The position numbers and the translations under genes are program-made. Positions 1-13,421 of a stretch of 64,000 nucleotides of DNA are shown piece after piece (positions within the stretch are counted from its first letter, which is position 1; every line of letters starts with the position of its first letter). This stretch comes from Paracoccus thiocyanatus. Its GTDB lineage: Bacteria > Pseudomonadota > Alphaproteobacteria > Rhodobacterales > Rhodobacteraceae. The notes beneath the pieces were generated by a model that was not told the DNA's origin, ran no database searches, and was given only the letters and a program-made list of their open reading frames with translations. The stretch is taken from NCBI RefSeq assembly GCF_900156255.1, contig NZ_FTMK01000003.1, positions 186,001-250,000 on the forward strand, written 5' to 3'.

Positions 1-1030
1 GGCGCTGGGCCACGAACGGCACGCGACCGGCGCCGAGGCGCTGGCCGCCTGGCTGGCCGGCTATGAGCTTTGGGCGCATCTGAGCGAGATCGAGCCCGGC
101 CACCTGCACGACCGCGGCTTTCACCCGACGGCGGTGATGGGCACGCTGGCCTGTGCGGCGGCCGCGGCCCGGCTCTTGGGGCTGGATGTCGGACAGACCC
201 GCCACGCCCTGGCGATCGCCGCCTCGCTTGCGGCGGGGCTGGTGGCGAATTTCGGCTCGATGACCAAGTCGCTGCATGCCGGGCGGACGGCGCAATCGGG
301 CATCCATGCCGCGCGCCTGGCGAGCGCCGGCTATACCGGCAGCGCCGATGTGTTCGAACACCGCACCGGCTTTCTGCGCGCCTTTTCGCCATCGGGCGCG
401 CCGGACCTGGACCCGGCCGGCTTTCGGATCGGCGAGGTGTCGCTGGCCGAAAGGTTCGGGGTCAATGTCAAGCGCTACCCGACCTGCTATGCCACCCATC
501 GCGCGCTGGATGCGATGCTGGACCTGGTCGGGGAACACGACCTGACGCCGGAAAAGATCGCGGCGATCCATGTCCATACCGGGGCCACGCAAAAGCTGAT
601 GCTGCGCAACAGCCGGCCGCAGACCGGGCTGGCGGCCAAGTTCTCGATGGAGTTCGCCATGGCGGGGGCGGTCGTGCAGCGCCGGCTGAGCCTGGACGAG
701 CTGACCGACGGCTTCGTGCAGCGCGCCGATGTCCAGGCGCTGCTGGAACGGGTCGAGGTCACGGCCAGCGAGGACAAGGCCGGCGGCGACCTGCCGAATG
801 CGCCCTTCGACCTGGTCTGGGTCGACACCACCGATGGCCGCGTCCTGCGCCACGAGCCGGTCGAACATGCGCGCGGTAGCTGGCAATTGCCGCTGGAGCG
901 GGCGGAAATCCGGGCCAAGTTCCTGGACTGCGCCAGCCGGAAACTGTCGCAGCCGCGCGCGGCGCAGCTTTTCGATACGCTTTGGGCGCTGGAAAACATC
1001 GGCGATCTGCGTGAGATAGCATTGATATGA
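1..1030 (+). CDS. MmgE/PrpD family protein, 5' end outside window
   Basis: The reading frame is open from base 2, so the start lies to the left of the window; about 342 C-terminal residues are present. The sequence matches the MmgE/PrpD fold (2-methylcitrate dehydratase, cis-aconitate decarboxylase, iminodisuccinate epimerase): an early DRGFHPTA stretch, an Ala-rich helical region, then the C-terminal lid domain. The family acts on polycarboxylic acids in the cytoplasm, but the substrate cannot be read from sequence. It ends just before an MBL hydrolase and is distantly similar to a full-length paralogue at 5165-6535 in the same gene run. Confidence 0.85.
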   Translation, partial: ALGHERHATGAEALAAWLAGYELWAHLSEIEPGHLHDRGFHPTAVMGTLACAAAAARLLGLDVGQTRHALAIAASLAAGLVANFGSMTKSLHAGRTAQSGIHAARLASAGYTGSADVFEHRTGFLRAFSPSGAPDLDPAGFRIGEVSLAERFGVNVKRYPTCYATHRALDAMLDLVGEHDLTPEKIAAIHVHTGATQKLMLRNSRPQTGLAAKFSMEFAMAGAVVQRRLSLDELTDGFVQRADVQALLERVEVTASEDKAGGDLPNAPFDLVWVDTTDGRVLRHEPVEHARGSWQLPLERAEIRAKFLDCASRKLSQPRAAQLFDTLWALENIGDLREIALI

Positions 1031-1092
1031 TTTCGACACCCCGGCGCATCGGGCGGCGGGGGTTTCCTTTGGGTAAAGATGTGAAGGCCAAG

Positions 1093-1983
1093 ATGAACGA
1101 CCTGCCGACAAGACAGATCCCCGGCGTCTACCATCGTCGCTTCGGCGACGTGCTGGTGACGGCCTTGTCCGACGGCTTTGTCGAGATGGGCTATGACATC
1201 TTCCGCGAGTTTTCCCGCGACGAGGTGGACCGGATGATGGCGCGCGATCACCGCATCTCGCCGCCGCGCATCTCGGTCAATTGCTTCTTGCTGCGCGGCC
1301 CGATGGGGCGGGTGCTGATCGACACCGGCTCGCAGGACAATTTCGGCCCCACGGCGGGCAAGCTGTTTGAAAACCTGGCCGCGGCGGGGATCGACCCGGC
1401 CAGCATCGAGCATGTGCTGCTGACCCATTGCCACCCGGACCATTCCGCCGGGCTGACCGACGGCCAGGACGGCCGGCGCCTGTTTCCCAATGCGCGGCTG
1501 ATCGTGAACCGCAAGGAAATCGCGCATTGGTTTTCCGACGAGGAACGCGACCGCGCGGATGAGCGCAAGCGTCTGCGCTATTTCGACTGGACGCGCCAGC
1601 AGGTCGGCCCCTATCGCGACGCGGGCCTGCTGCGCGAGGCCGAGGATGGCGAAGAGGTGCTGCCGGGCATCACCCTGGTGGAATGCGCCGGCCACACGCC
1701 CGGCCATTCCACCTGGGCGATCCGCTCGCAGGGGCGGCAGATGATCGTCTGGGGCGACCTGGCCCATGTGCCCGAGGTGCAGGTGGCGCGGCCCGGCGTC
1801 TCGATGAGCTTTGATCACGACCCCGACCTGGCGGCGCAGAACCGGATCGCGCTTTTGCAGCGCATCCATGACGAGGATATGCTGGTCGCGGGGATGCATA
1901 TCCATTTTCCCGGCTTCGGGTGGCTTTTGCGCGATGGCGACGGCTGGCGCGTCGCGACCGAGCAATGGGCCTTTGAGATCTGA
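1093..1983 (+). CDS. MBL-fold metallo-hydrolase
   Basis: A 296-residue metallo-beta-lactamase-fold hydrolase. The metal motif HCHPDH is at residues 112-117, later histidines follow in CAGHTPGHSTW, and an Asp ligand is in WGDLAH; the C-terminal HIHFPGF supplies the last His. I chose the ATG at 1093 because GAAGG sits just upstream and the paralogue at 9275 starts at the equivalent place. An ATG at 1027 overlaps the previous stop and would add 22 residues without homology. The family includes lactonases and thioesterases, so ring opening or ester cleavage is plausible but unproven. The string LVAGMHIHFPGF is shared exactly with the 9275 copy. Confidence 0.85.
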   Translation: MNDLPTRQIPGVYHRRFGDVLVTALSDGFVEMGYDIFREFSRDEVDRMMARDHRISPPRISVNCFLLRGPMGRVLIDTGSQDNFGPTAGKLFENLAAAGIDPASIEHVLLTHCHPDHSAGLTDGQDGRRLFPNARLIVNRKEIAHWFSDEERDRADERKRLRYFDWTRQQVGPYRDAGLLREAEDGEEVLPGITLVECAGHTPGHSTWAIRSQGRQMIVWGDLAHVPEVQVARPGVSMSFDHDPDLAAQNRIALLQRIHDEDMLVAGMHIHFPGFGWLLRDGDGWRVATEQWAFEI

Positions 1984-2001: not shown

Positions 2002-3033
2002 ATGGCAAGAACCCCCACCATCCGCGAGGTCGCGAAACTGGCGAAAGTGTCGATCGGCACGGTATCGCGGGTCATAAACGAGGCTGCGGACGTGACGCCC
2101 CATATCCGCAAGGCCGTCGAAAGCGCCATCGCGGAACTGGGCTATGTGCCCAATGCCGCGGCGAAATCCATGCGCATGGGACGCAGCCGCACGGTCGGAT
2201 GCATCCTGCGCGAAATCAACATCGCCCAGTTGGGCGGCTTTGTCTCGACGGCGCAGAACGCGTTCATGGAGGCGGGATACGCCCTGATGATCGCCAATTC
2301 CGAAGGGCGCCGCCCGCGCGAGATCGAGCTTTTGCGCAGCTTTTCCTCGGGTCAGGTGGATGGGGTGCTGATGGGTCCCTATACCCCCATCGAGGGCGAG
2401 TTCGAGGAGATCCTGCGCGAATTGCCGGTGCCGCTGGTCATGATCGACCGCGACCAGCCGCTGTGGTGCGACGCGGTCTATACCGACCATGAAGGCGGCA
2501 CCCACCAGGCCACCAGCCACCTGCTGCGCCTTGGCCATCGCCGCATCGCCATCCTGACCGGCCCGCCCCAGTTGCATCCGGGCGGCGCCCGCGTACGCGG
2601 GTTCCTGCGCGCCCATGCCGATATGGGGGTCGAGGCGGCGCCCGAACTGATCGTGGCCGAAAGCTTCCTGCGCGATCACGCCTATCGCGCCACATCCTCG
2701 CTTCTGGGGCTGTCGAAACCGCCCACGGCGATCATCGCCGGCGGCATCGACATGCTTTCGGGCGTGCTGCGCGCCATTCGGACGCGCGGCCTGACCATTC
2801 CCGACGATATTTCCGTGGTCGGCTCGGGTCGGAACGACCTGAGCGACCTGCACCAGCCCCCCATCGGGGTCGTAAGCTGGGATCAGAACGAAGTGGGGGC
2901 AACGGCGGCGTCGCTGCTGCTTGACCTTATCACCCACGGCAAGAGGGAGGAACCGCGCCGTGTCATCATACCGACAAGTTTCAATCCCCAGGGCTCTTGC
3001 ATGCCCCCGCGCCAGGCGGAAAGCCGGGACTGA
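2002..3033 (+). CDS. LacI-family transcriptional regulator
   Basis: A 343-residue repressor. An N-terminal LacI helix-turn-helix (TIREVAKLAKVSIGTVSRV, residues 5-23) and hinge helix (YVPNAAAKSM) are followed by a periplasmic-binding-protein-like effector domain. LacI proteins usually sense a sugar or sugar-derived acid. It lies 18 bases after the MBL gene and just before the OYE-led run, so it probably controls the surrounding catabolic genes. AGGA precedes the ATG. The effector is unknown; the sugar-acid genes at 11.2-15 kb make an aldonic-acid intermediate a reasonable guess. Confidence 0.92.
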   Translation: MARTPTIREVAKLAKVSIGTVSRVINEAADVTPHIRKAVESAIAELGYVPNAAAKSMRMGRSRTVGCILREINIAQLGGFVSTAQNAFMEAGYALMIANSEGRRPREIELLRSFSSGQVDGVLMGPYTPIEGEFEEILRELPVPLVMIDRDQPLWCDAVYTDHEGGTHQATSHLLRLGHRRIAILTGPPQLHPGGARVRGFLRAHADMGVEAAPELIVAESFLRDHAYRATSSLLGLSKPPTAIIAGGIDMLSGVLRAIRTRGLTIPDDISVVGSGRNDLSDLHQPPIGVVSWDQNEVGATAASLLLDLITHGKREEPRRVIIPTSFNPQGSCMPPRQAESRD

Positions 3034-3141: not shown

Positions 3142-3160
3142 CTGCGTTTGCGTGACGCAG
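3142..3160. promoter_or_regulatory. Candidate operator palindrome before the OYE gene
   Basis: The inverted repeat CTGCGT-N7-ACGCAG lies 20 bases upstream of the ATG at 3181, in the 147-base gap after the lacI-type gene. The position fits an operator for the adjacent regulator, but only one copy was found and the match to LacI consensus sites is loose. It could be chance in GC-rich DNA. The rest of the gap (3034-3141) shows no other feature. Confidence 0.3.
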
Positions 3161-3180
3161 CACTGAATGGAGAGAATGCA

Positions 3181-4371
3181 ATGGCCAGCGAAGTCAGACT
3201 TTTCACCCCTTTCACCCTGCGCGGCGTGACGCTGAAGAATCGCGTCGTCATCTCGCCCATGGGCACCTATTGCGCCGAGAACGGCCGGCTCCAGCCCTTT
3301 CACCACACGCATTATCCGGGCTTTGCCATGGGCGGCGCGGGGCTGGTCATGGTCGAGCAGACTTCGATCACCCGGCGCGGCCGGATCACCAACGGCGATC
3401 TGGGCATGTGGGAGGACGGGCAGATCGAGGGGATGCGCGCCCTGGCCAGCCATGTAAAGGCCTATGGCGCCAAGATCGGCATCCAGTTGAACCACGGCGG
3501 CCGCAAAAGCGCGATGCAGCGGGCATTCCGCGGCAACGGCCCGCTGACCGAACGCGACCTGGCGGCGGGCGAAGAGATCTGGACCCCCATGGCGCCCTCG
3601 GCCCTGCCCTTGGGCGAGGGCTGGCAGATGCCCGAGGAAATCACCCCGGCGCAGCTTGACGGGCTGCGCGACGCCTGGGTGGCGGCGGCACGGCGGGCGG
3701 TGCTGGCCGGGTTCGACCTGATCGAAATCCACATGGCGCATGGCTATCTGCTTCAGAACTTCCTGTCGCCCTTGGCCAATCAGCGCCAGGACGACTATGG
3801 CGGCAGCCTGGAAAACCGGATGCGCTTTCCGCTGGAGGTGGTCCGCGCCGTGCGCGAGGTGGTGCCGCATTCCATGCCGCTTTTCGCCCGCATCTCGGCG
3901 ACCGACTGGATCGAGGGCGGCTGGACCATCGACGACAGCGTCGTGCTGTCGCAGGCGCTGCAAAAGGCCGGGATCGACCTGGTCGATTGCTCGTCGGGCG
4001 GCAACCTGCGCACGGGGGCGACCAATTCCAGCCTGGGCCGCGGGCCGGGCTATCAGGTGCCCTTTGCCGACCGCATCCGCGCCGAGGTGGGCGTGGCCAC
4101 CGCCGCGGTCGGCATGATCCGCACCCCGGAATTTGCCGAGCGGATCTTGCAGGCCGGCCAGGCGGACCTGATCTGCATCGCCCGCCAGGCGCTGTTCGAC
4201 CCGTTCTGGGCGCATCACGCCGCCGAGGCGCTGGGCGTCAACCGGGGCTTTGCCGACTGGACCCCGCAATATGGCTGGTGGCTGGAGAAATGGGCCAAGG
4301 CGCTGGCCGCCAATGGCGAAACGCCGATGGGGCCCGAGGTGTTTCCCCAGGCGGCAAAGGCGGATGCGTGA
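3181..4371 (+). CDS. NADH:flavin oxidoreductase, Old Yellow Enzyme family
   Basis: A 396-residue single-domain FMN TIM barrel (OYE/YqjM type, no C-terminal FeS/FAD domain). An N-terminal LFTPFTLRGVTLKNR is followed by QLNHGGRKS, the catalytic pair His184/His187 in HMAHGYLL, and YGGSLENR. OYE enzymes reduce activated C=C bonds of enones or enoates with NAD(P)H. The ATG at 3181 has GGAGAG eight bases upstream; an in-frame TTG at 3148 is less likely. It heads the long co-directional run and is clearly paralogous to 6532-7728. An unsaturated carbonyl intermediate is inferred, not shown. Confidence 0.88.
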   Translation: MASEVRLFTPFTLRGVTLKNRVVISPMGTYCAENGRLQPFHHTHYPGFAMGGAGLVMVEQTSITRRGRITNGDLGMWEDGQIEGMRALASHVKAYGAKIGIQLNHGGRKSAMQRAFRGNGPLTERDLAAGEEIWTPMAPSALPLGEGWQMPEEITPAQLDGLRDAWVAAARRAVLAGFDLIEIHMAHGYLLQNFLSPLANQRQDDYGGSLENRMRFPLEVVRAVREVVPHSMPLFARISATDWIEGGWTIDDSVVLSQALQKAGIDLVDCSSGGNLRTGATNSSLGRGPGYQVPFADRIRAEVGVATAAVGMIRTPEFAERILQAGQADLICIARQALFDPFWAHHAAEALGVNRGFADWTPQYGWWLEKWAKALAANGETPMGPEVFPQAAKADA

Positions 4372-4372
4372 C

Positions 4373-5134
4373 ATGCCCATCCGCATCTGGCACCAATCCG
4401 TCAACGAACTGACCCGCATCGCGGCCTATAAGCAGGGCATCGAGGACCATGCCGCCCGCTTTCTGGGCGACGAGGCCCAGGTTCACGTCCACGGCCTTGC
4501 CGAGGGCACCTATGGCGAACTCAGCCCCAGCGATGCGCTGGGCAACGCGCATCTTTACCACCGCGTCCTGGGCCCCATCGTCGAACAGGCCGTCGAGGCC
4601 GAGCGCCAGGGCTATGACGCCTTTGTCATGGGGTCCTTCAGCGAACCCTATCTGCGCGAGATGCGCACGGCGGTCGATATCCCCGTGGTCTCGCTGACCG
4701 AGGCGGCGCTGCTGACCGGCTGCGCGCTTGGCACAAGGATCGGGCTGATCTCGAACGCGCCCAACGTCGCCTACATGACCCGGCTTTCGGTGGCCAAGCA
4801 TCACCTTGAGGCGCGGGTCAGCGCCGTCACCTCGCTGGTGCCGGGCATGGACGAATACGCGCTGATCGCGGCGCGCGACGAGCCCGCGGCGCTGATCGAG
4901 GCCTTTACCCGCACCGCCCGCGACCTGATCGCCGACGGCGCCGAGGTGATCGTGCCGGCCGAAGGCGTCATGGCCGAGATCCTGGCCGCCCGCGGCCTGA
5001 CCCGGATCGACCATGCGGTCGTCCTGGATGTCTTTGCCGCCGCCTGGGTGCAGGCGCTGGGGCTGGTGCGGCTGCGGCGCGGGCTTTCCATCACCATCAG
5101 CCGCGCCTGGGCCTATGGCCGGGGCGGCAACTGA
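4373..5134 (+). CDS. Asp/Glu/hydantoin racemase-like protein, catalytic cysteines replaced
   Basis: A 253-residue protein of the Asp/Glu racemase superfamily, closest by eye to hydantoin racemase: IRIWHQSVNELTR, YGELSPSDALGNAH, GYDAFVMGSFSEPYL. In two-base racemases of this fold a Cys is expected in each half. Here the first position reads Ser (about residue 88, GSFSEP) and the second reads Glu (about residue 197, VPAEGVM). It is therefore probably not a standard racemase; isomerase, decarboxylase or lyase chemistry is possible. It starts directly after the OYE stop; an in-frame ATG at 4364 would overlap that gene. Confidence 0.78.
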   Translation: MPIRIWHQSVNELTRIAAYKQGIEDHAARFLGDEAQVHVHGLAEGTYGELSPSDALGNAHLYHRVLGPIVEQAVEAERQGYDAFVMGSFSEPYLREMRTAVDIPVVSLTEAALLTGCALGTRIGLISNAPNVAYMTRLSVAKHHLEARVSAVTSLVPGMDEYALIAARDEPAALIEAFTRTARDLIADGAEVIVPAEGVMAEILAARGLTRIDHAVVLDVFAAAWVQALGLVRLRRGLSITISRAWAYGRGGN

Positions 5135-5164
5135 GAACCGAACACCGGGAGGAGGAACCCGAAC

Positions 5165-6535
5165 ATGGCATCTGCCGGAAAGATGATTGGCGACTATCTG
5201 GGGGATTTCGGTGGGCGCGAGATCGCGCCGCCGGTCCGCGACAAGGCGCTGATGTGCCTGCTGGATACGCTTGGCCTTGCGATCTCGGCCCGCGGCGAGC
5301 CGACGGCGCGGGCGGCCCTGGCCCTGTCCGGGCCGCTGCCCGAAGACAGTCCCGGCAGCGCCGCCGCCTGGATTTCGGGCGCGCGGCTTTCGCCGTCCGA
5401 GGCGGCTTTCACCAATGGCGTCGCCGCGCATGCCCATTTCCAGGACGATACCGACATGCCGTCCTGGACCCATCCCGGCTCGCTGGTGCCGCCCGCGGTG
5501 CTGGCCCTGGCCGAGCGCGAGGGCGCCAGCCTGGAAACCGCCTTGCGCGGCATCGTCGCCGGCTACAGCGTCATCAACTGGCTGGGCCGCGACGAGGTGG
5601 TGGCGCGCCGGCTGATCGCCCGCGGCTTTCGCACCAGCCCCAGTTTCGGGACCATAGCCGCGGCCGCCGGGGCGGCGGTGGTGCTGGGGCTTGACCCGGC
5701 GCAGGCGGCCTCGGCGGTTTCCATCGCCGCCTCGACCACCGGCGGCACGCTGGAGCCGGTGCGGGCGGGCGCCGACGAATGGCGCGTCCAGAACGGCCGG
5801 GCCGCCCAGGGCGGGCTGATCGCGGCGCTCTTGGCGCAGGCCGGCGTGCAGGGCGCCCCCCAGGCGCTGGACGGGCCCAAGGGCTTTCTGGCCACGCTGG
5901 CCGGGATGGATACCCGCCCCGATGTCTGGGAAAGCCCGCCCGATCCCGCCATCATGCTGGAAATCCTGTGCAAGCCCTATGCCACGCTGGGCGACAACAT
6001 GCCGGCGGCCATGGCGGCGCAGAAGCATTTCCAGGATGGCGTCGATCCACAGATGATCGAGGCGGTCGAGGTCACGCTGTGGAAGCCCTTCACCGAATAT
6101 CCCGGCACCAATTACAAGGGCCCGTTCGAGCGGCTGGTGCAATGCCAGGCCAGCACCGCCTTTGCGGTCGCGACCATGCTGACTCAGGGCGACATCACCT
6201 ATGAGATGGGCAACAGCCTGCGCGCCGATCCGGCGATCCTGAACCTCGTCTCGCGCACCACCGTCATCCCTGACGACCCGATAGGCCCGCTGGATGCCAA
6301 GGTGGTGCTGGCGATGAAGGATGGCAGCCGCCGCCAAGCGGTGACGGCGGATGTCCCGCGCGAGCTGATCCTTCTGACCCGTGAACGCGCGCTTGCGGTC
6401 TTTGACGCGCGGCTTGCGGCGGCGGGGGCACGGCCGGGCGCGGCCAGGGCGCTTGGCGAGACGTTGTTTGCCGGCGGCGGTGCCGAGGTGCCGGCGGCCC
6501 AGGCGCTGGCCGGGATCCGGGGGCTTTGGGCATGA
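5165..6535 (+). CDS. MmgE/PrpD family protein
   Basis: A full-length 456-residue MmgE/PrpD protein: an N-terminal helical domain with FTNGVAAHAHFQDDTD (the family's conserved NG..AH..D.DD region, about residues 82-97), a middle region with MPAAMAAQKHF, and the C-terminal lid. GGAGGAGG lies upstream of the ATG. It is separated by 30 bases from the racemase-like gene and overlaps the next OYE gene by ATGA, so it is co-translated. Family members dehydrate, decarboxylate or epimerise polycarboxylates; the true reaction here is unknown. Confidence 0.87.
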   Translation: MASAGKMIGDYLGDFGGREIAPPVRDKALMCLLDTLGLAISARGEPTARAALALSGPLPEDSPGSAAAWISGARLSPSEAAFTNGVAAHAHFQDDTDMPSWTHPGSLVPPAVLALAEREGASLETALRGIVAGYSVINWLGRDEVVARRLIARGFRTSPSFGTIAAAAGAAVVLGLDPAQAASAVSIAASTTGGTLEPVRAGADEWRVQNGRAAQGGLIAALLAQAGVQGAPQALDGPKGFLATLAGMDTRPDVWESPPDPAIMLEILCKPYATLGDNMPAAMAAQKHFQDGVDPQMIEAVEVTLWKPFTEYPGTNYKGPFERLVQCQASTAFAVATMLTQGDITYEMGNSLRADPAILNLVSRTTVIPDDPIGPLDAKVVLAMKDGSRRQAVTADVPRELILLTRERALAVFDARLAAAGARPGAARALGETLFAGGGAEVPAAQALAGIRGLWA

Positions 6536-7728
6536 ACATGGTCCCCCGGTCCGAGATGCCGCTGCTGTTCCGCCCCTGGACGGTGCGCGGCGTGACCTTG
6601 AAGAACCGCATCGTCGTCTCGCCCATGGGCACCTATAGCGCCGAGGACGGCCGGCTGACGCCGTTCCAGTTCGCGCATTACCAGCGCATGGCGATGGGCG
6701 GCGCCGGCCTGGTCATCATGGAGCAGACCTTCGTCACGCGGGCGGGGCGGGTCTCGAACGGCGATCCGGGGCTTTGGGCCGACAGCCATATCGAGCCGAT
6801 GGCGCGGCTGGTCAGCGAGATGAAGCGCTATGGCGCGAAAACCGCCATCCAGATCAGCCATGGCGGCCGCAAGGGCGGCCAGCAGCGCGCGCATGAGGGC
6901 AACGGCCCGATCGGCGAGCGCGATCTGGCCGCCGGAAGCGAGCGGCTATTCCCGATGGGTCCCTCGGCCCTGCCGCTGGCCGAAGGCTGGCTGATGCCCG
7001 TCGCGATGACCGAGGCGCAGATCGAGGGGGTGATCGACGCCTTTGTCGCCGGGGCGCGCCGCGCCATCCTGGCCGGCTTCGACCTGCTGGAGCTGCATCT
7101 GGCGCATGGCTACCTGTTGCAAAGCTTCCTGTCGCCGCTGGCCAACCAGCGCCAGGATCGCTGGGGCGGCAGCCTGGAAAACCGCATGCGCCTGCCGCTG
7201 GCGGTGGTGCGGGCGCTGCGCGGGGTCATGCCGGATTCGATGCCGCTTATCGCCCGGCTTTCGGTGACGGACTGGATCGACGGCGGCTGGACCGAGGACG
7301 ACAGCATCGTGCTGGCGCGCGAATTGCGGGCGGCGGGGGTGGACCTGATCGACTGTTCCTCGGGCGGGAACATGCGGGCGGGGGCCACCAATTCCAACCT
7401 TGCGCGCGGACCGGGCTATCAGGTGGCGCTGTCCGACCGGCTGCGGCGCGAAACCGGGATGCCGACCGCGGCGGTCGGGATGATCCGCAGCGCCGGCCAT
7501 GCCGAGCGGTTGCTGCAAGAGGGCAGGGCGGACCTGATCTGCATCGGTCGCCAGATGCTGTTCAACCCGTTCTGGGTGCGCCACGCCGCCTGGCAGATGG
7601 GCGTCGATCCCGGCTTTGCCGATTGGCCCGAACCCTATGGCTGGTGGCTGGACAAATGGGCGCGCTCGCTTGCCGCGGCCGGAGAGGATCCGCTGGGCCC
7701 CGAGCGTTTCCCGCCGGAGGAGTCGTGA
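6532..7728 (+). CDS. NADH:flavin oxidoreductase, Old Yellow Enzyme family (second copy)
   Basis: A 398-residue FMN TIM-barrel enzyme closely related to the OYE at 3181. It shares RGVTLKNR, the catalytic His189/His192 in HLAHGYLL, WGGSLENRMR, and DLIDCSSGGNMRAGATNSN. The ATG overlaps the upstream stop (ATGA). A TTG six bases upstream is less likely. Two OYEs in one operon suggest two reductive steps or two substrates of differing size. The C-terminus (GFADWPEPYGWWLDKWA) is also conserved between the copies. Confidence 0.88.
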   Translation: MNMVPRSEMPLLFRPWTVRGVTLKNRIVVSPMGTYSAEDGRLTPFQFAHYQRMAMGGAGLVIMEQTFVTRAGRVSNGDPGLWADSHIEPMARLVSEMKRYGAKTAIQISHGGRKGGQQRAHEGNGPIGERDLAAGSERLFPMGPSALPLAEGWLMPVAMTEAQIEGVIDAFVAGARRAILAGFDLLELHLAHGYLLQSFLSPLANQRQDRWGGSLENRMRLPLAVVRALRGVMPDSMPLIARLSVTDWIDGGWTEDDSIVLARELRAAGVDLIDCSSGGNMRAGATNSNLARGPGYQVALSDRLRRETGMPTAAVGMIRSAGHAERLLQEGRADLICIGRQMLFNPFWVRHAAWQMGVDPGFADWPEPYGWWLDKWARSLAAAGEDPLGPERFPPEES

Positions 7729-9278
7729 TGATGAACTGGGGCGAGGAATTCGCGCCTTTGCGGCAACGCCATGGCGAACGCATCGGCATCGTCGACGATG
7801 AAGGCCAGCACCGCATCGCCGAGGTGCTGGACCGGGCGGCCGGCATCGCGGACGAACTGCGCCGCCAGGGGCTGGGACCGGGCGATTTCGTCGCGACGGT
7901 GTTTCACAACTCGGCCCTGGCCGCCGCCGCCAGCTATGGGGTCGCATTGGCGGGCATCACCGAAGTGCCCGCCAATCCCGCGCTAAGCGAGGCGGAACTG
8001 GCGCATGTGCTGGCTTGCAGCACGGCGCGCCTTGCGCTGGTGGACGGGTCGGACCAAAGCTTGCCCGCCATGTCGGTGCGGCTGCTGGACGTGCGCGCCA
8101 TCGCGCCGCGGCCCCTGACCGCGCGGGGCTGGCCGGATGTCGCGCCGGACGCGCCGTCGCGGATCGTCTTCACCAGCGGCACCACCGGCCCCGCCAAGGG
8201 GGCGATCCACAGCCATCGCGGACGCTGGACCGGCGCCTTGATGCTGCGCGCGGCGCTGCCGCTGCTGCCGGACGGCGCGAACCGCATCCTGCTGATGACG
8301 CCGTTTTCGCATGGCAGTTCGCTGCTGACCTTTGCCTTCCTGGCCCACGGGGCCAGCGTGCATCTGCTGCGCGGCGTCGATCCCGAAACGGTGCTGCCGC
8401 TGCTCGCCTCGGGGTCGATTACCGAGATTTTTGCGCCGCCCACCGTGCTGGCAAAGCTGACCGCCGCCGCCGCCGGGCCGGACCATGCCGGGCGGCGCTG
8501 GCCCCTGCGCACCATCCTGACCGGCACGGCGCCGCTGACGCCGCTGATCTATCGGCGCGCGGTCGAATGCTTTGGCCCGATCATCCGCGTCACCTATGGC
8601 AAAAGCGAGATCTTCAACCCGATCACCGTCCTTGATCCGGCCGAGACCGCCGAGGTCTATGCCGAGGGCCAGGCGGCGGGTGAGGGGCTTTGCGTCGGCT
8701 GGCCGGCCAGCGGGGTGCGCATCGCCATCCGCGACGAGACGGGGCGCGCCCTGCCGCCGGGTGAAACCGGCCGCATCCACCTGCTCAGCCCGCATCTGTC
8801 GCAGGGCTACATGACGCTTGACGGCCCGCGCATGCTGGCGCCGGGCGAATATCACGATACCGGCGATCTTGGCCGCATCGACGCGCGCGGGCGGCTGTTC
8901 CTGGTCTCGCGCCAGTCGGACATGATGAAGACCGGCGGCTACAAGGTCTCGCCCGACGAGGTCGAGCGCGCGCTGGCCCCGCATCTGCCGGAAAGCGAGC
9001 TGATCGTGCTGGGCTATCCTTCGGATTACTGGGGCGAAATCGTCACGCTGGTGGCCGCAAGCCCGCCAGCGGACTGGCTGGACCGGCTGGAACCGGCGTT
9101 GAGGGAGCTGACCGGCTACAAGCGGCCGCGGCTTTTCGTCGCGATGGGGGAATTGCCGCGCAACAGCATCGGCAAGATCGCCCGCGCCCAGCTTCGCCGC
9201 TGGATCGGCGCGCATTACGATCTGGTGGAACAGCCGCGGCCGCAACTGCGTCCCCGCCATGCCGGAGCCGAGCAATGA
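7728..9278 (+). CDS. Acyl-CoA synthetase / AMP-dependent ligase
   Basis: A 516-residue class I adenylate-forming enzyme. The P-loop TSGTTGPAKG is at about residue 147, the A5-type motif reads YGKSE rather than the commoner YG-T-E, the hinge motif is HDTGDLGRID, and the C-terminal catalytic Lys is in RNSIGKIAR. It should activate a carboxylic acid to its CoA thioester via acyl-AMP. GGAGG precedes the start; ATGs at 7728 and 7731 are both possible. A CoA ligase in this operon implies that the substrate or an intermediate is a carboxylic acid processed as a CoA ester. The exact acid is unknown. Confidence 0.87.
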   Translation: MMNWGEEFAPLRQRHGERIGIVDDEGQHRIAEVLDRAAGIADELRRQGLGPGDFVATVFHNSALAAAASYGVALAGITEVPANPALSEAELAHVLACSTARLALVDGSDQSLPAMSVRLLDVRAIAPRPLTARGWPDVAPDAPSRIVFTSGTTGPAKGAIHSHRGRWTGALMLRAALPLLPDGANRILLMTPFSHGSSLLTFAFLAHGASVHLLRGVDPETVLPLLASGSITEIFAPPTVLAKLTAAAAGPDHAGRRWPLRTILTGTAPLTPLIYRRAVECFGPIIRVTYGKSEIFNPITVLDPAETAEVYAEGQAAGEGLCVGWPASGVRIAIRDETGRALPPGETGRIHLLSPHLSQGYMTLDGPRMLAPGEYHDTGDLGRIDARGRLFLVSRQSDMMKTGGYKVSPDEVERALAPHLPESELIVLGYPSDYWGEIVTLVAASPPADWLDRLEPALRELTGYKRPRLFVAMGELPRNSIGKIARAQLRRWIGAHYDLVEQPRPQLRPRHAGAEQ

Positions 9279-10219
9279 CCGGGTTCGAGCAGGTCCCCGC
9301 CGTCTATCACCGCCTGGTCGGCGATTGCCTCGTGACCACGATCTGCGACGGCTACATGGCCTATGACACGCTGGAAATCATGCGCGACGCCGATCACGCC
9401 AAGCTGCGCCGCTTCCTTGAGGCCGAGACCCGCGTCTGCCCGCCGGTTGTCTCGATCAACACCTTCCTGATCCGCGACGGGGCGCGGGTCATCCTGGTCG
9501 ATTGCGGCTCGGGCGCGATCATGGGGCCGACCTGCGGCCTGCTGCCGGAACTGATGGCGCATCTGGGCCTGGCCCCTGGGGCGGTCACGGATATCCTGCT
9601 GACGCATGTTCATCCCGATCATTCCTGCGGGCTGACCGATCCCGAAAGCGGGCGCAAGCTTTTTCCGAATGCGCGCCTGCACCTGCACCAGGCCGAGATC
9701 GACCACTGGTTCGACGATGCGGCGCGGGCCCGCGCCACCGAACGGCAGAAGCGGGTCTATTTCGACGCGGCGCGCGTCCAGCTTGAGCCCTGGCTTGCCG
9801 ACGGTTCGGCCCGGCCTTTCACGGCCGAGCATGAAGTGCTGGCCGGGATCACCGCCTTGCCCTCGACCGGGCATACGCCGGGGCATTGCTGCTATGTCCT
9901 GCGCTCGCGGGGCGAGGCGATGATCGTCTGGGGCGATACCGTCCATATCCCCGAGGTCCAGTTGGGCGATCCCGATGTCGGGATGATCTTCGACAGCGAC
10001 AGCCCCGCGGCGGCGCGGTCCCGGCGGCGGATCTTGCAGCTTTGCGTCGACCAGGACCTGCTGGTCGCGGGAATGCATATCCATTTTCCCGGCTTTGCCC
10101 GGATCCGCAAAGGCCATGAGGGTGCGTTCCGCTTTGTCCAGGAACAATGGTTCCACGCGCCCAATCACGGGCACGACCCCGCGATCTGGCAACCGCCCCG
10201 CGCGAAGGAGGAAGAATGA
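9275..10219 (+). CDS. MBL-fold metallo-hydrolase (second copy)
   Basis: A 314-residue MBL-fold protein with the metal motif HVHPDH at residues 111-116, GHTPGH, WGDTVH and the C-terminal LVAGMHIHFPGF. It is a clear paralogue of 1093-1983 and shares the N-terminal VYHR-G-LVT pattern. The start overlaps the ligase stop by ATGA. The position after a CoA ligase would fit a thioesterase or lactonase role, which is inference. Confidence 0.87.
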   Translation: MTGFEQVPAVYHRLVGDCLVTTICDGYMAYDTLEIMRDADHAKLRRFLEAETRVCPPVVSINTFLIRDGARVILVDCGSGAIMGPTCGLLPELMAHLGLAPGAVTDILLTHVHPDHSCGLTDPESGRKLFPNARLHLHQAEIDHWFDDAARARATERQKRVYFDAARVQLEPWLADGSARPFTAEHEVLAGITALPSTGHTPGHCCYVLRSRGEAMIVWGDTVHIPEVQLGDPDVGMIFDSDSPAAARSRRRILQLCVDQDLLVAGMHIHFPGFARIRKGHEGAFRFVQEQWFHAPNHGHDPAIWQPPRAKEEE

Positions 10220-11199
10220 CCACGATGCAGATCTGCCACGCGCCCCAGCCGGGCGGCCCGGACGCCCTGCGCTTTCTGGCGGTGCCGCGCCCGGAACCCG
10301 GCCCCGGCCAGGTGCTGATCCGGGTCGGCGCGGTGGGCGTGAACCGGCTTGATGCGATGCAGCGCGCCGGGAACTATCCGCTGCCGCCCGGCGTCAACCC
10401 GGTCCTGGGGGTCGAGGTCGGCGGCGAGGTGGTCGCGACCGGCCCCGAGGTCCATGGGATCGCCGTGGGCATGCGGGTCGCGGCGCTGCTCGAAGGCGGC
10501 GGCTATGCCGAATTCGCCTGCGCCGACCACCGCCATGTCGCCCCGGTGCCGCAGGACTGGGACGACATCCGCGCCGCCGCGGTCATCGAGACCTTCTGCA
10601 CCGCCCATGAAACCCTGTTCGAACTTTCGCGCCTGGCCCCCGGCGAGCGGGTGCTGATCCATGCCGGCGGCTCGGCCGTCGGCAGCACCGCGATCCGCAT
10701 GGCCCAGGCGGTCGGGGCCGAGATCGCCACCACCACCGGCCGCGAGGACAAGGCCGATCGGTTGCGGGCGATGGGCGTGCCGCATGTGCTGAACTATCGC
10801 CAGGGCGATTTCGCGGCCGCCCTGCGCGAGATCTGGCCCGAAGGGCTGGACGTGGTCGAGGATTTCGTCGGCCCGGCCAATCTGGCGCGCCATATCGACC
10901 TGCTGCGCTGGCGCGGGCGGATCGCCCTTGTCGGATTGCTGAGCCAGGGCATGGCCGAATTCGACGTCGCCAAGGTGCTGACCCGGATGATCCAGTTGCG
11001 GGGCTTTACCCTGCGGCCGCATTCGGCGGCGGAAAAGGCGGCGGTGGTGGCGCGGTTCCGCCAGCGCTGGCTGCCCGAGCTTGCCGCCGGCCGCATCGCC
11101 CCGGACATCCATGCCGTGCTGCCCTTTGGCGATGCCGTCCAGGCGCACCGCATCCTCGAAGCTGCCGACAATTTCGGCAAGATCATCCTGCGGATGTAA
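10216..11199 (+). CDS. Quinone oxidoreductase-like, zinc-independent MDR-family protein
   Basis: A 327-residue medium-chain dehydrogenase/reductase of the NADPH:quinone oxidoreductase branch. An N-terminal GroES-like domain with GVNRLDAMQRAGNYP and a nucleotide-binding domain with HAGGSAVGSTAIRMAQ are visible; no structural-zinc cysteine cluster is seen. It reduces quinones or enones with NAD(P)H. The ATG overlaps the previous stop (ATGA) and has AAGGAGG upstream. It is the last member of the tightly coupled run; the next gene follows after 25 bases. Confidence 0.88.
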   Translation: MTTMQICHAPQPGGPDALRFLAVPRPEPGPGQVLIRVGAVGVNRLDAMQRAGNYPLPPGVNPVLGVEVGGEVVATGPEVHGIAVGMRVAALLEGGGYAEFACADHRHVAPVPQDWDDIRAAAVIETFCTAHETLFELSRLAPGERVLIHAGGSAVGSTAIRMAQAVGAEIATTTGREDKADRLRAMGVPHVLNYRQGDFAAALREIWPEGLDVVEDFVGPANLARHIDLLRWRGRIALVGLLSQGMAEFDVAKVLTRMIQLRGFTLRPHSAAEKAAVVARFRQRWLPELAAGRIAPDIHAVLPFGDAVQAHRILEAADNFGKIILRM

Positions 11200-11224: not shown

Positions 11225-12223
11225 ATGCTGCTGTCACAGATAAGATCCGCCGATGGAGCCGTCCGGGTCCTGGCGCGCGAAGAGGGCGAGCCCGCCCGCG
11301 AACTGCCCCAGGCCGAAAGCCTTTATGCCCTTGCCATGCAGGCCATCGTCCAGGACATCCCGCTGGCCGGGCTGATCGCCGGCCTGGCCAGGGGCGCGGC
11401 CCACGATCTCCAGGAGCTTGCGCGCGCCGGCCGCTACCTGCCGCCGCTGACCCATCCCGATCCGGCGCATCTGCATCTGACCGGCACCGGGCTGACCCAT
11501 CTGGGCTCGGCCGCGACCCGCGCCGCGATGCATGGCAAGATGCAGGACGAAACGGAGTTGACCGATTCCATGCGCATGTTCCGCATGGGGCTTGAAGGCG
11601 GCAAGCCGGCTGCCGGAGAGGTGGGGGCGCAGCCCGAATGGTTCTACAAGGGCAACGGCCATAACCTGGTGGCGCCGGGTGCCGCGCTGGTGGCGCCCGC
11701 CTTCGGCGAGGATCTGGGCGAAGAGCCGGAAATCGCCGGCATCTACCTGATCGGCCCGGACCGCCGGCCCTGGCGGCTGGGATTTGCGCTGGCCAACGAA
11801 TTTTCGGATCACGTGACCGAAAGGGTGAACTACCTGTGGCTGGCCCATTCCAAGCTGCGCCCGGCCAGTTTCGGCCCCGAAATCCGGCTGGGCGAATGCC
11901 CGGCGGATGTGCGCGGCACCAGCAGGATCTGGCGCGACGACCGGCCGGTCTGGGAAAAGCCGTTCCTGACCGGCGAGGCCAATATGTCCCACAGCCTGGC
12001 CAATCTGGAACATCACCATTTCAAATATGACCTGTTCCGCCAGCCGGGCGACGTGCATGTGCATTTCTTCGGCACCGCCACGCTTTCCTTTGCCGACGGG
12101 ATCAAGGTGGCGCCGGGCGATGTCTTTGAAATCTCGGCCCCCGGCTTCGGCCTGGCCCTGCGCAACGGCGTGGCCAAAGCCCCGGCGGCCGGGCCGGCCC
12201 AGATCGCGCCAAGAGCCCTGTGA
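11225..12223 (+). CDS. GguC/AraD1-type fumarylacetoacetate hydrolase-like protein
   Basis: A 332-residue protein of the GguC/AraD1 group in the FAH superfamily. Characteristic stretches include LTGTGLTHLGSAATR, GFALANEFSDH, and HHHFKYDLFRQPGDVHVHFF. Relatives are linked to dehydration of 2-keto-3-deoxy sugar acids such as 2-keto-3-deoxy-L-arabinonate. AGGAAAGG precedes the ATG at 11225. With the two downstream genes it forms an apparent pentonate-to-alpha-ketoglutarate module. The exact substrate is inferred from family context only. Confidence 0.85.
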   Translation: MLLSQIRSADGAVRVLAREEGEPARELPQAESLYALAMQAIVQDIPLAGLIAGLARGAAHDLQELARAGRYLPPLTHPDPAHLHLTGTGLTHLGSAATRAAMHGKMQDETELTDSMRMFRMGLEGGKPAAGEVGAQPEWFYKGNGHNLVAPGAALVAPAFGEDLGEEPEIAGIYLIGPDRRPWRLGFALANEFSDHVTERVNYLWLAHSKLRPASFGPEIRLGECPADVRGTSRIWRDDRPVWEKPFLTGEANMSHSLANLEHHHFKYDLFRQPGDVHVHFFGTATLSFADGIKVAPGDVFEISAPGFGLALRNGVAKAPAAGPAQIAPRAL

Positions 12224-12236
12224 AACCGCGGCCCGC

Positions 12237-13421
12237 ATGACGCCCGTGCCGGTCCAGATTTTCTTCAGCGAAGATGGGGATGAAATGATCGACGACCTTT
12301 CCGGGCTATGGCTTGGACGCGTCTGGCTGCCCGAGGCGGGCGGCCCGGCGGTGGTGACGCTGCGCGGGGGCGAGGTGATCGACATCACCGCCAAAGGCGC
12401 GGCGACCGTCTCGGATATTTGCGAAATGGACGATCCGGCCGCATTCGTCCGCGCGGCCCCAGGGCGGGCGCTTGGCGATCATGCCGAGATCGGCAGCGCG
12501 GCGGTGGGCGACCTTTCCGTCACGCATTTTCTGGCGCCCTGCGACCTTCAGGCCATCAAGGCGTGCGGCGTCACCTTCGCCCGTTCGATGGTCGAGCGGG
12601 TGATCGAGGAAAAGGCCGGCGGCGATCCCGCCCGCGCCGCCCAGATCCGCACCCGCATCGGCCGGGTGATCGGCGACAGCCTGCGCAATCTGCAAGCTGG
12701 CTCGGACCAGGCGATGCGCGTCAAGCAGGCCCTGATCGCCGAAGGCATGTGGTCGCAATACCTGGAAGTGGGCATCGGCCCCGATGCCGAGGTGTTTTCC
12801 AAGGCGCAGGTCCTGTCCTCGGTCGGCACGGGGGCCGAGATCGGCCTGCATCCGGTCTCGACCTGGAACAATCCCGAACCCGAGATCGTGCTGGCGGTGT
12901 CGTCCAGCGGCCGCATCGTCGGCGCCACGCTGGGCAATGACGTGAACCTGCGCGATGTCGAGGGGCGCTCGGCCCTGCTGCTGTCCAAGGCCAAGGACAA
13001 CAACGCCTCCTCGGCCATCGGGCCGATGATCCGGCTGTTCGATGCCGGCTATGCGCTGGACGACATCCGCCGGGCGGAACTGGCGCTGAAGGTCGAGGGA
13101 GAGGACGGCTTTGTCCTGAACGGGCATTCTTCCATGTCGCAGATCAGCCGCGACCCCCAGGAACTGGTCCGCCAGACCGTCGGGCGCCACCATCAATATC
13201 CCGATGGCTTCATGCTTTACCTGGGCACGCTGTTCGCCCCGACCGAAGACCGCGACGTCAAGGGCGAGGGCTTTACCCACAAGATCGGCGATGTCGTCAC
13301 CATCTCGGCCCCCGGCCTTGGCGCGCTGCGCAACACCGTGCGGCTTTCGACCCAATGCGCGCCCTGGACCTATGGCGTCTCGGCGCTGATGAGGAACCTG
13401 GCCGGCCGCGGCCTGATCTAA
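12237..13421 (+). CDS. FAH-family 2-keto-3-deoxy-sugar-acid dehydratase-like protein
   Basis: A 394-residue FAH-superfamily protein resembling Caulobacter XylX (2-keto-3-deoxy-D-xylonate dehydratase). It has LGRVWLPEAGGPAVV, TVSDICEMDDPAAF, SMVERVIEEKAGGD, the metal/substrate region GPDAEVFSKAQVLSSVG, and C-terminal FTHKIGDVVTIS. Relatives carry an EDG segment before LGRVW, supporting the ATG at 12237; an ATG at 12285 with GGGGA upstream is a serious alternative (378 residues). The product would be alpha-ketoglutarate semialdehyde, the substrate of the next enzyme. Confidence 0.85.
   Translation: MTPVPVQIFFSEDGDEMIDDLSGLWLGRVWLPEAGGPAVVTLRGGEVIDITAKGAATVSDICEMDDPAAFVRAAPGRALGDHAEIGSAAVGDLSVTHFLAPCDLQAIKACGVTFARSMVERVIEEKAGGDPARAAQIRTRIGRVIGDSLRNLQAGSDQAMRVKQALIAEGMWSQYLEVGIGPDAEVFSKAQVLSSVGTGAEIGLHPVSTWNNPEPEIVLAVSSSGRIVGATLGNDVNLRDVEGRSALLLSKAKDNNASSAIGPMIRLFDAGYALDDIRRAELALKVEGEDGFVLNGHSSMSQISRDPQELVRQTVGRHHQYPDGFMLYLGTLFAPTEDRDVKGEGFTHKIGDVVTISAPGLGALRNTVRLSTQCAPWTYGVSALMRNLAGRGLI

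Follow-up and report, generated by a model that had tools for sequence, protein, structure and literature searches.

The gene RAC, at positions 4373..5134 (+) of the window (the whole stretch of 64,000 nucleotides of Paracoccus thiocyanatus DNA that was analysed), encodes a 253-residue protein of the Asp/Glu racemase fold that carries a serine (Ser88) and a glutamate (Glu197) in place of the two catalytic cysteines of this fold. Both residues, together with a second glutamate (Glu91), are kept throughout a clade of close relatives, here called the S/E/E clade, most of whose members lie in one conserved operon. Since Ser and Glu replace both catalytic cysteines, RAC is proposed to move protons, probably with carboxylates instead of thiols, as judged from these substitutions. 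The reading favoured here, to which a probability of about 0.5 is assigned, is that RAC is a cofactor-free proton-transfer isomerase or epimerase of a small di- or polycarboxylate, with Glu197 as the constant acid/base and Glu91 (or Ser88/His7) on the opposite side. Catalysis in the racemase fold is commonly attributed to a pair of thiols with an acidity suited to abstracting protons. With a hydroxyl and a carboxylate in their place throughout a conserved clade, the scaffold would prove able to accommodate base pairs of other kinds.

The assignment of RAC to this fold is based on its translation, on Pfam and on an AlphaFold model. The ATG at 4373 lies one base past the stop codon of the preceding gene, OYE1. 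The Pfam family Asp_Glu_race (PF01177) matches the protein with an E-value of 2.8e-18 and 66.9 bits, exceeding the gathering cut-off of 31 that defines membership of the superfamily by score, while none of the NCBIfam models scored on RAC rose above its own cut-off. The AlphaFold2 model (pLDDT 90.9, pTM 0.90) shows the two-domain racemase fold, with Z scores of 22–25 to 5lg5, 3qvj, 2eq5 and 9qbx. Its top structural matches are the allantoin racemase of P. fluorescens (5lg5/5lfd; Z 25, 2.2–2.3 Å over 223–224 residues) and that of Klebsiella (3qvj/3qvk; Z 24.9), and lower ranks are taken by Asp racemases (Z 17), arylmalonate decarboxylase (AMDase; 16.5) and maleate isomerase (16.1). The sequence-only reading, which had described the fold as well kept and had named hydantoin racemase, maleate isomerase and AMDase for structural comparison, is therefore borne out as to the fold by the Pfam score and by the match to allantoin racemase, which ranks well ahead of the last two enzymes. 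Relatives of RAC carry the annotation label aspartate/glutamate racemase, which should not be taken as a function. An antisense open frame of 699 residues also runs across RAC (4238-6337, −) and probably arises only from the high G+C content of the coding sequence.

Three alignments agree on the catalytic positions. A phmmer search of solved structures places Ser88 (codon 4634..4636, +; motif GSFSEP) at the first catalytic cysteine of Klebsiella allantoin racemase, Cys79, and Glu197 (codon 4961..4963, +; motif VPAEGVM) at the second, Cys184. The hhalign comparison of a profile of 19 RAC-subfamily rows (A1) with one of nine homologues (A3), in which C79, D82 and C184 are among the invariant residues, has a probability of 99.0 and pairs Ser88 with C79, Glu91 with D82 and Glu197 with C184. 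Likewise, a MAFFT alignment of 109 sequences sets Ser88 and Glu197 at the first and second cysteines. In the model, strand 83–86 precedes Ser88 and strand 192–195 precedes Glu197. Cys79/Cys184 is given as the catalytic dyad of allantoin racemase in PMC12661438; in the phmmer alignment, both positions are Cys in the Klebsiella structure 3qvj, whereas 3qvk/3qvl carry two serines there and look like engineered mutants. A catalytic Cys in each half is typical, though not universal, of PF01177, and RAC has Ser88 and Glu197 instead. The sole cysteine of RAC, Cys117 (codon 4721..4723, +; motif TGCAL), falls at a non-catalytic helix position and is ruled out as a catalytic residue by all three alignments; because it is the only one, a single RAC chain could not hold a two-thiol active site under any alignment. 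The placement of Ser and Glu at the catalytic positions had been put forward by the sequence-only reading, and the alternative that would have overturned it, Cys117 at a catalytic site, fails.

Glu91 (codon 4643..4645, +), three residues past Ser88, lies opposite Asp in the nine canonical A3 homologues. In the phmmer alignment with the Pseudomonas fluorescens enzyme 5lfd, Gly at chain position 75 stands opposite Ser88 and Glu at 78 opposite Glu91. In that enzyme, Glu78 is reported to take over from the missing Cys (Cendron et al., 2016). Chemistry different from two-base racemisation had been predicted for RAC; the loss of both thiols is confirmed, but Glu91 had been overlooked, and two-base proton transfer stays compatible with the absence of cysteines because Glu91 aligns with this reported Cys substitute and is invariant in the clade. 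A further polar residue, His7 (codon 4391..4393, +), lies in the WHQS motif, where strand 1 ends. By manual offset counting on the phmmer alignment, Ser127 and Asn128 fall at Thr118/Thr119 of the Klebsiella enzyme, which are described as substrate-binding in PMC12661438, and each is kept in 20 of the 21 clade members.

Ser88, Glu91 and Glu197 are invariant in 21/21 clade sequences, which are 33–100% identical to RAC and group with 93% SH-aLRT support in a quick tree. Among six of these sequences, Ser88 is encoded by TCC, TCG, TCA or TCT, a synonymous variation. Moreover, dN/dS is 0.08–0.19 in all five pairs examined, one of which has dS above 2, and RAC is under purifying selection. Conservation throughout the clade, synonymous variation at Ser88 and low dN/dS together argue that the Ser88/Glu197 pattern did not arise by chance.

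Loss of cysteine is common among the relatives compared. In the 109-sequence alignment, a set enriched for relatives of RAC, Cys is found at neither catalytic position in 72 sequences and at both in 24. Of the 30 best-scoring loci taken from the PF01177 matches in 60 genomes, 29 were read, and Cys is at both positions in 20/29 and at neither in 0/29. RAC belongs to a WxQS clade of PF01177 that comprises 59 of the 109 sequences, forms one starred branch on the tree and has Cys at position 197 in none of its members (0/59). We know of no characterised member of this clade. Its members carry His7 with Glu or Asp at 197 (32), His88 with Gly197 (21) or neither His (6); thus, His occurs at position 7 or at position 88, never at both. 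Wherever position 197 is acidic (33 sequences of the alignment), position 88 holds Ser (25), Thr (6) or Cys (2), position 91 holds Glu (23), Asp (6), Ser (3) or Asn (1), and His7 is present in 32 cases. Coevolution of His7 with the acid at 197 was considered and rejected: the association is 31/31 versus 1/27, but it involves two changes per trait on the tree and 1 independent pair on starred branches, with no significance. It is also broken by L122, outside the 109, which combines Tyr7 with Thr88, Glu91 and Glu197.

Two further groups of cysteine-free relatives can be distinguished. Firstly, a racemase-like group (L015, L017, L019, L020, L021, L022 and L079) carries Ala in place of the first catalytic cysteine and Gly in place of the second. 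Secondly, two plasmid-borne members of the sister clade with His88/Gly197 (GHFQD), L067 and L120, adjoin genes for thiolase, SDR and cyclase-family proteins. Their stretches also contain a TrpC-like gene, to which L067 adds 3-hydroxyanthranilate dioxygenase and indolepyruvate oxidoreductase. Such a neighbourhood resembles a cluster for the breakdown of indole or auxin, and the auxin-degradation (iad) literature found among CC-licensed PMC papers does not mention a racemase.

In the window, the operon lies on the + strand and begins with the MmgE/PrpD protein MmgE1 (1..1030, its 5' end upstream of the window), the metallo-beta-lactamase-fold hydrolase MBL1 (1027..1983), which is AidB-lactonase-like at a score below the NCBIfam cut-off, a LacI-family regulator (2002..3033) and the old-yellow-enzyme-family oxidoreductase OYE1 (3148..4371). 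RAC is followed directly by a second MmgE/PrpD protein, MmgE2 (5165..6535), and then by a second old-yellow-enzyme-family oxidoreductase, OYE2 (6526..7728), an AMP-binding acyl-CoA ligase (7731..9278), a second hydrolase of the metallo-beta-lactamase fold, MBL2 (9275..10219), and a PIG3-type quinone oxidoreductase (QOR; 10147..11199, over the NCBIfam cut-off), whose true start may be further downstream. A GguC/AraD1-family protein (11225-12223, +; over the NCBIfam cut-off) and a FAH-family protein (12321-13421, +) trail the operon, with an aldehyde dehydrogenase next. Within the flanks compared, relatives are present in some orthologous loci only.

A subfamily with the Ser/Glu pair in MmgE/OYE operons, as the sequence-only reading had envisaged, does exist: 17 of the 21 clade members, the window included, have RAC in this operon. 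The 16 other syntenic loci (L031-L046) come from Paracoccus, Methylobacterium, Ochrobactrum/Falsochrobactrum/Brucella, Rhizobium, other Rhizobiales and Xanthobacter. Read as far as the sequence of each locus reaches, and with names taken from Pfam, the shared order is ABC transporter, CaiB (CoA-transferase III), enoyl-CoA hydratase, HMGL-like protein, acyl-CoA dehydrogenase, MmgE1, MBL1, LacI, OYE1, RAC, MmgE2, OYE2, AMP ligase, MBL2 and QOR. The HMGL-like protein exceeds the NCBIfam cut-off for HMG-CoA lyase (275.6 versus 246). OYE1 is directly upstream of RAC in 16/16 loci and MmgE2 directly downstream in 15/16, the remaining locus (L045) ending at RAC. No description of this operon or pathway was found by its gene names among CC-licensed PMC papers, and the operon provides an experimentally accessible route into a catabolic pathway.

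Beyond these loci, the arrangement becomes looser. A rearranged version of the operon is found in L047 and in one genome (L080/L081). In Variovorax RA8, a RAC of 48% identity lies beside LacI, CaiB, enoyl-CoA hydratase, HMG-CoA lyase and tricarboxylate-transporter binding proteins, and neither MmgE nor OYE was found in the 24.7 kb stretch. Distant relatives show the orders RAC-MmgE2-LacI-QOR-ABC-FAH (L083), MmgE2-RAC (L126) and LacI-hydratase-RAC-QOR (L128), and L127 keeps the ABC genes only. Tricarboxylate-transporter binding proteins also lie beside RAC relatives in L065 and L066, the latter with a tricarballylate dehydrogenase. MmgE/PrpD was also considered as a partner for the wider family in general, but is a weak candidate and was rejected. 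A count by hand, over stretches of unequal length and without the loci of the syntenic or rearranged operon (L031-L047, L080/L081), places it near 4/13 relatives with an acid at 197 (L053, L066, L068 and L083) and did not find it in the stretches of the other nine (L048, L049, L050, L051, L052, L054, L058, L065 and L082). Among three further such relatives, it accompanies L126 and neither L127 nor L128, and two loci from other clades, L059 and L060, have it nearby as well.

The distribution of RAC and its operon among alphaproteobacteria is patchy. Counting in each case the genome searched from, RAC matches occur in 6/125 genomes of the genus at 1e-20, in 4/297 genomes of the order of genome G570 at 1e-40 and in 10/398 genomes of the phylum at 1e-15; at a looser 1e-3, 103/295 genomes of the family match, mostly distantly. 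The S/E/E type is present in 3 of the 6 genomes of the genus. The two further Paracoccus S/E/E genomes are not independent, since they may be of the same species as L031 and L033.

An isomerase or epimerase of a small polycarboxylate is favoured because of the enzyme families of the operon and the polycarboxylate genes beside relatives of RAC. CaiB, the hydratase and the HMG-CoA-lyase-like protein suggest a route in which a dicarboxylate undergoes activation, hydration and cleavage, and the tricarboxylate-transporter binding proteins and the tricarballylate dehydrogenase point to polycarboxylates; the product of RAC would fit these CaiB, enoyl-CoA hydratase and HMG-CoA-lyase-like steps. The reaction may be an epimerisation; alternatively, an enolate intermediate may allow a 1,3-shift or an E/Z isomerisation. 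In the second half of the protein, Glu197 would take the place of Cys184 as the acid/base, and its partner across the cleft would most likely be Glu91, by analogy with what is reported of the Pseudomonas enzyme, so that Glu91/Glu197 could form a carboxylate base pair. Ser88 and His7 would then be binding residues or, alternatively, would serve as the partner. Glu/Glu is a known epimerase base pair according to a review (PMC8142540). Against this reading, Glu91 is not universally conserved outside the clade, and a single essential Glu197 would also fit a decarboxylase with one proton donor. A more specific version is offered tentatively: in the thiol-free clade, Glu91/Glu197, with His7, may transfer protons to isomerise an unsaturated polycarboxylate supplied by a neighbouring MmgE/PrpD protein. 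The catabolic pathway, of which no description was found among CC-licensed PMC papers, would finish with CaiB, hydratase and a cleavage of the HMG-CoA-lyase type.

Proton transfer in the same fold may instead be carried out by Glu197 and Ser88, assisted by His7, with Glu91 in a structural role. Glu91 may not be the general partner, since Ser or Asn stands at 91 in 4/12 of the acid-197 sequences outside the 21-member clade, while position 88 is Ser, Thr or Cys in 33/33, with His7 in 32/33. Such a site would be a serine version of that of E. coli EcL-DER, in which Thr replaces one catalytic Cys and conversion of S-Asp to R-Asp, in this one direction, is still possible, as stated in the same review (PMC8142540); OpaE C90S, moreover, retains 4.8% activity according to PMC12661438. 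Nevertheless, a serine accepts protons poorly, the clade of RAC has Glu91 without exception, and the His7/acid-197 association, already broken by the Tyr7 of L122, is no independent evidence because each trait changed only twice on the tree. This pairing is considered unlikely.

It appears quite unlikely that RAC is an AMDase-like enzyme that decarboxylates a malonate-type substrate without a cofactor and uses Glu197, instead of Cys188, to donate the proton. In favour of this, the gene families of the operon mark it as catabolic, AMDase matches the RAC model structurally (Z 16.5), and its first catalytic position is also not Cys, being Gly74 in PMC4996985. However, AMDases rank well below allantoin racemases, and the features by which that source characterises them, C188, the motif ILLSCGGL and Gly74, are absent from RAC, which has Glu197 in VPAEGVM and, if G74 lies at the position of the first cysteine, Ser88 there.

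A lyase, hydratase or hydrolase using His7, Ser88 and Glu197 as its catalytic set is very unlikely. The co-occurrence of His7 (32/33), Ser/Thr/Cys88 (33/33) and Glu/Asp197 is in its favour, as is the fact that the MmgE/PrpD family includes dehydratases; on the other hand, to our knowledge, no Ser-His-Glu hydrolase exists in the racemase fold. A catalytically dead scaffold or binding protein, as the loss of both catalytic cysteines might suggest, is extremely improbable in view of charged and polar pocket positions invariant across 33–100% identity, dN/dS of 0.08–0.19 and the place of RAC within the operon at the 16 syntenic loci that were examined.

Comparison with known systems sets RAC apart from each of them. 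Maleate isomerase (4fq7, 2xed; Z 16) is a member of the same superfamily that acts on small dicarboxylates with two catalytic Cys. Its covalent succinyl-Cys mechanism is impossible for RAC, which has Cys117 alone, and such chemistry was ruled out because there is no Cys at either catalytic site. The arylmalonate decarboxylase of Bordetella (3dg9, 3ixl) shares the superfamily and a first catalytic position that is not Cys, and differs in its essential Cys188 and its lower structural rank. NozR keeps both Cys and is inactive without them, according to PMC10156859, and does not bear on the Cys-free clade. The Klebsiella pneumoniae allantoin racemase (3qvj, 3qvk) and the hydantoin racemases resemble RAC in the fold, the FxxP loop and the positions of Thr118/Thr119, approximately those of Ser127/Asn128, but have the Cys79/Cys184 dyad, and the canonical homologues have an N-terminal NPNT motif where RAC has WHQS. 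Among the neighbours of RAC with a Pfam match, some others matching no Pfam family, no ureide-pathway families were found. The closest fold is that of P. fluorescens AllR (5lfd, 5lg5), which, at about 25% identity, shares with RAC a first position that is not Cys and a Glu three residues downstream, whereas its first position is Gly instead of Ser88 and its second keeps the Cys (LGCGGMA) that is Glu197 in RAC.
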